Positions 28,849-28,917 of a stretch of 64,000 bases of DNA are shown here, in pieces. Positions within the stretch are counted from its first letter, which is position 1, and each line of letters opens with the position of its first letter. This DNA comes from an uncultured Pelagibacteraceae bacterium (GTDB lineage Bacteria; Pseudomonadota; Alphaproteobacteria; Pelagibacterales; AG-422-B15). The position numbers and the translations under genes are program-made. The notes beneath the pieces were generated by a model that saw only the letters and a list, made by a program, of their open reading frames with translations, did no database searches and was not told the DNA's origin. The DNA is taken from assembly GCA_902544065.1 (NCBI GenBank), contig CACCAS010000003.1, positions 68,492-132,491 on the forward strand, written 5' to 3'.

Positions 28849-28855
28849 AGCGGGT

Positions 28856-28898
28856 AATATGATTCAAAATAGAATCCAGGTCAATAGTATTTAGAATC
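28856..28898 (-). promoter_or_regulatory. ccrM promoter with three GANTC sites
   Basis: On the minus strand a -35 TTGACC (28879-28884) and -10 CATATT (28856-28861) are 17 bp apart. GANTC sites lie at 28861-28865 and 28872-28876 (at or inside the spacer) and at 28894-28898 (upstream). The predicted transcription start falls almost at the ATG (28848), so the mRNA may be leaderless. Methylation control is inferred from the known Caulobacter ccrM promoter, which also carries GANTC sites. Confidence 0.55.
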
Positions 28899-28917
28899 AA
28901 TAACTTAAATAATCTTC

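Follow-up and report, generated by a model that had tools for sequence, protein, structure and literature searches.

The timing of the GANTC adenine methyltransferase CcrM is known mainly from Caulobacter, where it is set by CtrA. SAR11 bacteria, which are among the most abundant marine cells, also carry ccrM. CtrA has been reported missing from Pelagibacter, and in Caulobacter it is CtrA that switches ccrM on (PMC3667746); what, then, drives ccrM in SAR11? The question is raised here by a ccrM locus in a stretch of 64,000 nucleotides, referred to below as the window, from an assembly of 1.26 Mb in 18 contigs that is 94% complete. The named genomes nearest to it carry the label Pelagibacteraceae (AG-904-D18, AG-337-G06 and AG-422-B15), which places the window's genome in SAR11.

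The ccrM gene lies on the minus strand (positions 27,751–28,848, with its ATG at 28,848) and encodes 365 residues that contain the Pfam N6_N4_Mtase and RAMA domains. Its product matches the structure of C. crescentus CcrM (6pbd; 9e-157) and the NCBIfam CcrM model (4.7e-185), the latter with 614 bits, under a cut-off of 830 bits that none of 290 genomes from the class reaches. These matches identify the protein as a full-length N6 adenine methylase that ends in a RAMA domain and is the orthologue of C. crescentus CcrM. Its upstream neighbour on the same strand is rnhB (28,918–29,523), which encodes ribonuclease HII (Pfam RNase_HII, 1.2e-41), and the two genes are separated by a 69-bp interval (28,849–28,917, minus strand) that reads gaagattatttaagttattGATTCtaaatactaTTGACCtgGATTCtattttGAATCATATTacccgct-ATG on the coding strand and holds the putative core promoter. 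The rnhB–ccrM order is retained in every one of the 49 SAR11 loci whose sequence continues upstream of ccrM, and the 69-bp gap is conserved in the window's genus. An Rfam search found no structured RNA in the ccrM leader, its sole match being a tRNA elsewhere. In ten complete SAR11 genomes, ccrM lies 264–389 kb from dnaA, a distance that shared gene order could account for.

The interval displays a compact promoter architecture, all elements of which are read on the minus strand. A −35 element, TTGACC (28,884–28,879), and a −10 element, CATATT (28,861–28,856), are separated by a 17-bp spacer that contains one GANTC, as the first-pass annotation of this DNA had claimed. A scan of the sequence also finds all three GANTC sites that it had listed upstream of ccrM: a proximal site (28,861–28,865; GAATC on the coding strand, TGATTC on the template), a spacer site (28,872–28,876; GATTC on the coding strand) and an upstream site (28,894–28,898; GATTC) located upstream of the −35 element at about −49 to −45. 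The overlap described between the proximal site and the −10 element exists, but it falls on the first base of the −10 element, the C at −12 that is also the last base of the GANTC, and not on its end. The proximal site thus occupies a fixed register of −16 to −12; the register of the spacer site is floating. Since only 7 nt separate the −10 element from the ATG, a normal transcription start is predicted to fall on the A of the ATG or one base before it (28,848–28,849), and no Shine–Dalgarno sequence is seen before the ATG. This geometry supports the compact promoter suggested previously and predicts an mRNA that is probably leaderless or nearly so. Across the class, the start codon lies 10–17 nt after C(−12) in 27 of 72 promoters.

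The number of sites carries less weight than it first seems to. Base composition gives 0.20 GANTC in 69 bp, in agreement with the value of about 0.2 proposed earlier. GANTC is depleted in the window (135 found versus 218 expected from dinucleotide shuffles), and its under-representation has been reported for CcrM-bearing Alphaproteobacteria. At the window's own GANTC density the expectation falls to 0.14, with a probability of about 4e-4 for three or more sites in this chosen interval. However, the 64-kb window holds three GANTC triples within 69 bp versus 1.1 expected, so that the site count alone is weak evidence and was rejected as sufficient. The promoter score alone was rejected likewise, promoter-like matches being at chance level (11 found versus 11.4 in shuffles). 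Another GANTC triple, within 35 bp (1,365–1,399), coincides with the beginning of a recombinase-like ORF (31–1,410, minus strand).

The matter is settled by conservation, by which the arrangement at ccrM is judged not to be a product of chance. The first-pass annotation had made its claim depend on the sites being kept in relatives; the comparison finds them conserved, and the claim survives. The core TTGACC-(GANTC)-GANTC-ATATT is present at ccrM in 27 of the 28 same-genus intervals, whereas TTGAC itself and the upstream GANTC are present in all 28. The spacer GANTC is found in 27 of 28, the exception reading GAAAC, and in two intervals (L026 and L027) it is displaced by 1 nt with the total spacing unchanged. 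The proximal GANTC follows TTGAC by 14 nt in every one of the 27 same-genus tandem promoters. Genome-wide statistics, which rest on pattern searches, place the single occurrence of the full signature TTGAC-N14-GANTC-A-NNN-T in the window's genome at ccrM; a looser tandem pattern matches essentially ccrM alone in relatives, and its reversed-pattern control gives 0 matches. A second tandem match in one relative (G000) was dismissed as chance, as it lies antisense inside metK. In a second SAR11 family, Pelagibacteraceae, most genomes carry TTGAC-N3/4-GANTC-N6/7-GAGTCTAATT, in which the spacer is longer by one base and the −10 register is not clear-cut. Four SAR11 genomes of three other genera (L029, L042, L047 and L049) have no or one GANTC in the rnhB–ccrM gap, which indicates that the feature can be lost.

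The same architecture recurs far outside SAR11. The survey comprised 138 ccrM upstream regions of 260 bp from across Alphaproteobacteria, extended with 75 named loci to 213; related genomes are not independent, and the counts therefore overstate the number of independent events. The 138 upstream regions hold 546 GANTC versus 151 expected, and spacings of 9–13 bp between sites are strongly over-represented. The strict tandem pattern occurs in 59 of them and in none of the shuffles. The offset of the proximal GANTC after TTGAC peaks at exactly 14 nt (64 of 74 tandem cases), that of the spacer GANTC varies from 2 to 5 nt, and A(−11) and T(−7) after the proximal site are invariant in 64 of 64 tandem promoters. 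Read from these offsets, the class-wide form is a putative promoter of the type TTGACN-17bp-CANNNT, in which the −10 element begins with the final C of a GANTC. There is also a class-wide excess of GANTC beginning 14–16 nt upstream of TTGAC. The signature TTGAC-N14-GANTC-A-NNN-T, mostly accompanied by another GANTC in the spacer, is present in 72 of the 138 regions (90 of 213 with the named loci), and the genomes bearing it span 36 of the 68 sampled families, a spread that makes chance untenable. Sneathiella, Kordiimonas and Micavibrio carry it; the sampled Rhizobium, Sinorhizobium, Mesorhizobium and Brevundimonas lack it, as does L375, a close Caulobacter relative. At the proximal site the variable base is A or C in 88 of 90 cases, compared with 50% at other upstream sites, which gives TGAKTC on the template strand; the spacer site shows no such preference. 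Nor is this promoter a product of genome streamlining, as many genomes of 3–6 Mb carry it.

The distribution of CtrA boxes gives a second view of the question. No CtrA box (TTAA-N7-TTAA) occurs in the window's rnhB–ccrM interval. Perfect boxes are found in 0 of the 90 upstream regions with the signature promoter and in 12 of the 123 without it, where 0.9 would be expected. This inverse pattern suggests that ccrM can be driven in either of two ways; in the sequences sampled, the signature promoter tends to replace the CtrA box. The OmpR-family regulators examined in SAR11 include PhoB adjoining PhoU, and a CtrA candidate next to gcrA was rejected on finding that it is this PhoB.

GcrA is a plausible reader of the sites: it binds GANTC in the methylated state and brings RNA polymerase to promoters so marked (PMC3667746). 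GcrA-activated sites are reported to prefer YGAKTCK (PMC7987155). At the window promoter the upstream site (TGATTCT) is the only full match; the proximal site matches TGAKTC on the template with A as the next base, and the spacer site does not fit. The proximal T-GAKTC, as read on the template, would thus fit the published GcrA preference. From GANTC conservation in 13 alphaproteobacteria, ccrM has been predicted as a core GcrA target, lost in freshwater Caulobacterales (PMC7987155). The GcrA family is present in 48 of 59 relatives. No gcrA is found in the window's own metagenome-assembled genome, and the neighbours of gcrA sit there at the ends of two contigs; the absence is not accepted as real, since the locus falls in a contig gap, which explains but does not prove the point. 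A caution for a model in which GcrA reads the promoter comes from G020, a 99% complete genome of the same genus that has no GcrA match and retains an intact ccrM promoter with four GANTC (L118; G020:C4:62778-62806). In three Pelagibacteraceae genomes (G037:C1:231652, G044:C1:188506 and G055:C8:31593), a similar single-site signature (TTGACTTTCTTT...GANTCAANTT) lies about 6–7 kb from gcrA.

Of the GANTC sites in Pelagibacter NP1, a cultured strain, 99.86% carry full methylation (PMC9516812). This methylation, the binding of GcrA to methylated GANTC, the presence of gcrA in relatives and the CtrA pattern together favour a promoter marked by CcrM and read by GcrA with sigma-70. The best explanation of the locus, which we consider fairly probable, is that ccrM is expressed from a sigma-70 promoter under the control of methylation by CcrM itself, as read by GcrA. 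The interval would be the sigma-70 core promoter of ccrM, with CcrM sites within the stretch that RNA polymerase covers: a first GANTC locked to −12, another floating in the −35/−10 spacer and, for this genus, one more immediately upstream of the −35 element. CcrM would methylate the adenines of these sites, and as a result of replication they would be hemimethylated during part of the cell cycle. GcrA, a cofactor of sigma-70, would most probably read the marks and help the poor −10 element (CANNNT) to fire, so that CcrM synthesis would follow the GcrA level and the replication state without CtrA; the transcript would probably begin at or next to the ATG. The sites with their register, conservation and proximal polarity, the gcrA genes of relatives and the inverse relation to CtrA boxes are observations; that this organism methylates the sites, that GcrA binds them, that the effect is activating and where transcription starts are points that we infer. 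Feedback on ccrM through GANTC methylation, as first proposed, is thus the natural reading of the conserved sites, but the promoter is not a pared-down Caulobacter promoter and belongs to a different type.

The sign of the feedback could be the opposite. Full methylation might block the promoter directly, which would then fire only when hemimethylated after passage of the fork; CcrM would shut its own gene, and the role of GcrA would be secondary or absent. Precedents come from Caulobacter ccrM, which has been modelled as transcribed from hemimethylated DNA only (PMC2217572) and called most probably methylation-sensitive (PMC3973325), and from the Agrobacterium gcrA promoter, which is repressed by full methylation even in E. 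coli (PMC11514494); the G020 genome, nearly complete and with the promoter but no GcrA match, points the same way. We nevertheless regard this alternative as rather unlikely. The proximal site keeps one polarity on the template strand, which suggests a reader protein, and the weak −10 element suggests a need for help; moreover, those promoters of Caulobacter that have a GANTC between the −35 and −10 elements reach their peak at 40–60 min, which is consistent with GcrA activation, although the mechanism was left open in that study (PMC4287350). It is for the first two of these reasons, polarity and the poor −10 element, that we prefer activating marks over repressing ones.

Transcription of ccrM mainly from upstream of rnhB, as an rnhB–ccrM operon in which the GANTC promoter would be minor, would agree with the gene order and 69-bp gap conserved in the genus, and no terminator-like site was found within the gap; it is improbable, however, given that the promoter is better conserved than the remainder of the gap and is met again in many families. 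Less credible still is that the sites are kept for a role outside the promoter, for example as mismatch repair or segregation marks, or arose by chance in a short AT-rich interval: other GANTC triples do occur in the window, one of them inside coding sequence, and their number is not extreme against expectation, but neither reading accommodates the fixed register to TTGAC with the unvarying A(−11) and T(−7) shared by many families, the compensating 1-nt shifts of the spacer site at constant total spacing and the lack of strict matches in shuffles.

The CcrM-marked, GcrA-read promoter favoured here shares features with known systems without coinciding with any of them. The Caulobacter crescentus ccrM promoter also drives an orthologous CcrM, has GANTC sites near the start and is believed to be methylation-sensitive (PMC3973325, PMC2217572), and autoregulation by methylation has been proposed for it (PMC3973325); it differs in being activated by CtrA (PMC3667746). 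The close relative L375 (80% CcrM identity) has GANTC sites near the start codon but lacks the TTGAC-N14-GANTC core. A second likeness is to the GcrA-dependent methylated sigma-70 promoters of Caulobacter (ctrA P1, mipZ, podJ and ftsN), where GANTC lies within the polymerase footprint; the proximal T-GAKTC fits the published GcrA motif (PMC7987155). However, only one GANTC is described for ctrA P1 and for ftsN, whereas the ccrM signature core usually has two, one of them in fixed overlap with the −10 element, and the GcrA role is here a predicted one. The predicted core GcrA regulon includes ccrM, but its sites were scored anywhere from −200 to +100 and few likely GcrA targets were found in Pelagibacter (PMC7987155), whereas the present promoter has a defined geometry, in SAR11. 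The searchable literature, with several key subscription articles outside its scope, yielded no prior description of this geometry, of the fixed and floating sites, of the SAR11 form or of the inverse relation to the CtrA box; the geometry and the SAR11 form look undescribed, with priority uncertain.

A precisely built promoter that is not of the Caulobacter type thus recurs in 36 of 68 sampled families, including SAR11, which reportedly lacks CtrA, so that CcrM very probably takes part in timing its own synthesis. The signature offers a simple sequence marker for predicting whether a lineage relies on self-methylation or on CtrA for ccrM. The ccrM promoter may rank among the handful of cell-cycle control elements that can be identified in SAR11, and two of its adenine sites are singled out as testable in a culturable relative. 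A bolder and rather unlikely extension is that the tandem-GANTC core promoter might be an old, CtrA-independent mode of ccrM control in Alphaproteobacteria, in which CcrM, via GcrA, would need its own marks for expression and so form a replication-gated, self-sustaining epigenetic loop; SAR11, reportedly without CtrA, would run this loop as its main cell-cycle clock, and Rhizobiales and Caulobacterales would have replaced it with CtrA.

A second recurrent tandem-GANTC promoter, TTGAC-N5-GANTC-N6-GATTC, was noticed in other Alphaproteobacteria (L265, L270 and L271). It lies just upstream of a gene for a coiled-coil protein of 107–110 residues that, judged by eye, resembles the division protein FtsB/DivIC.
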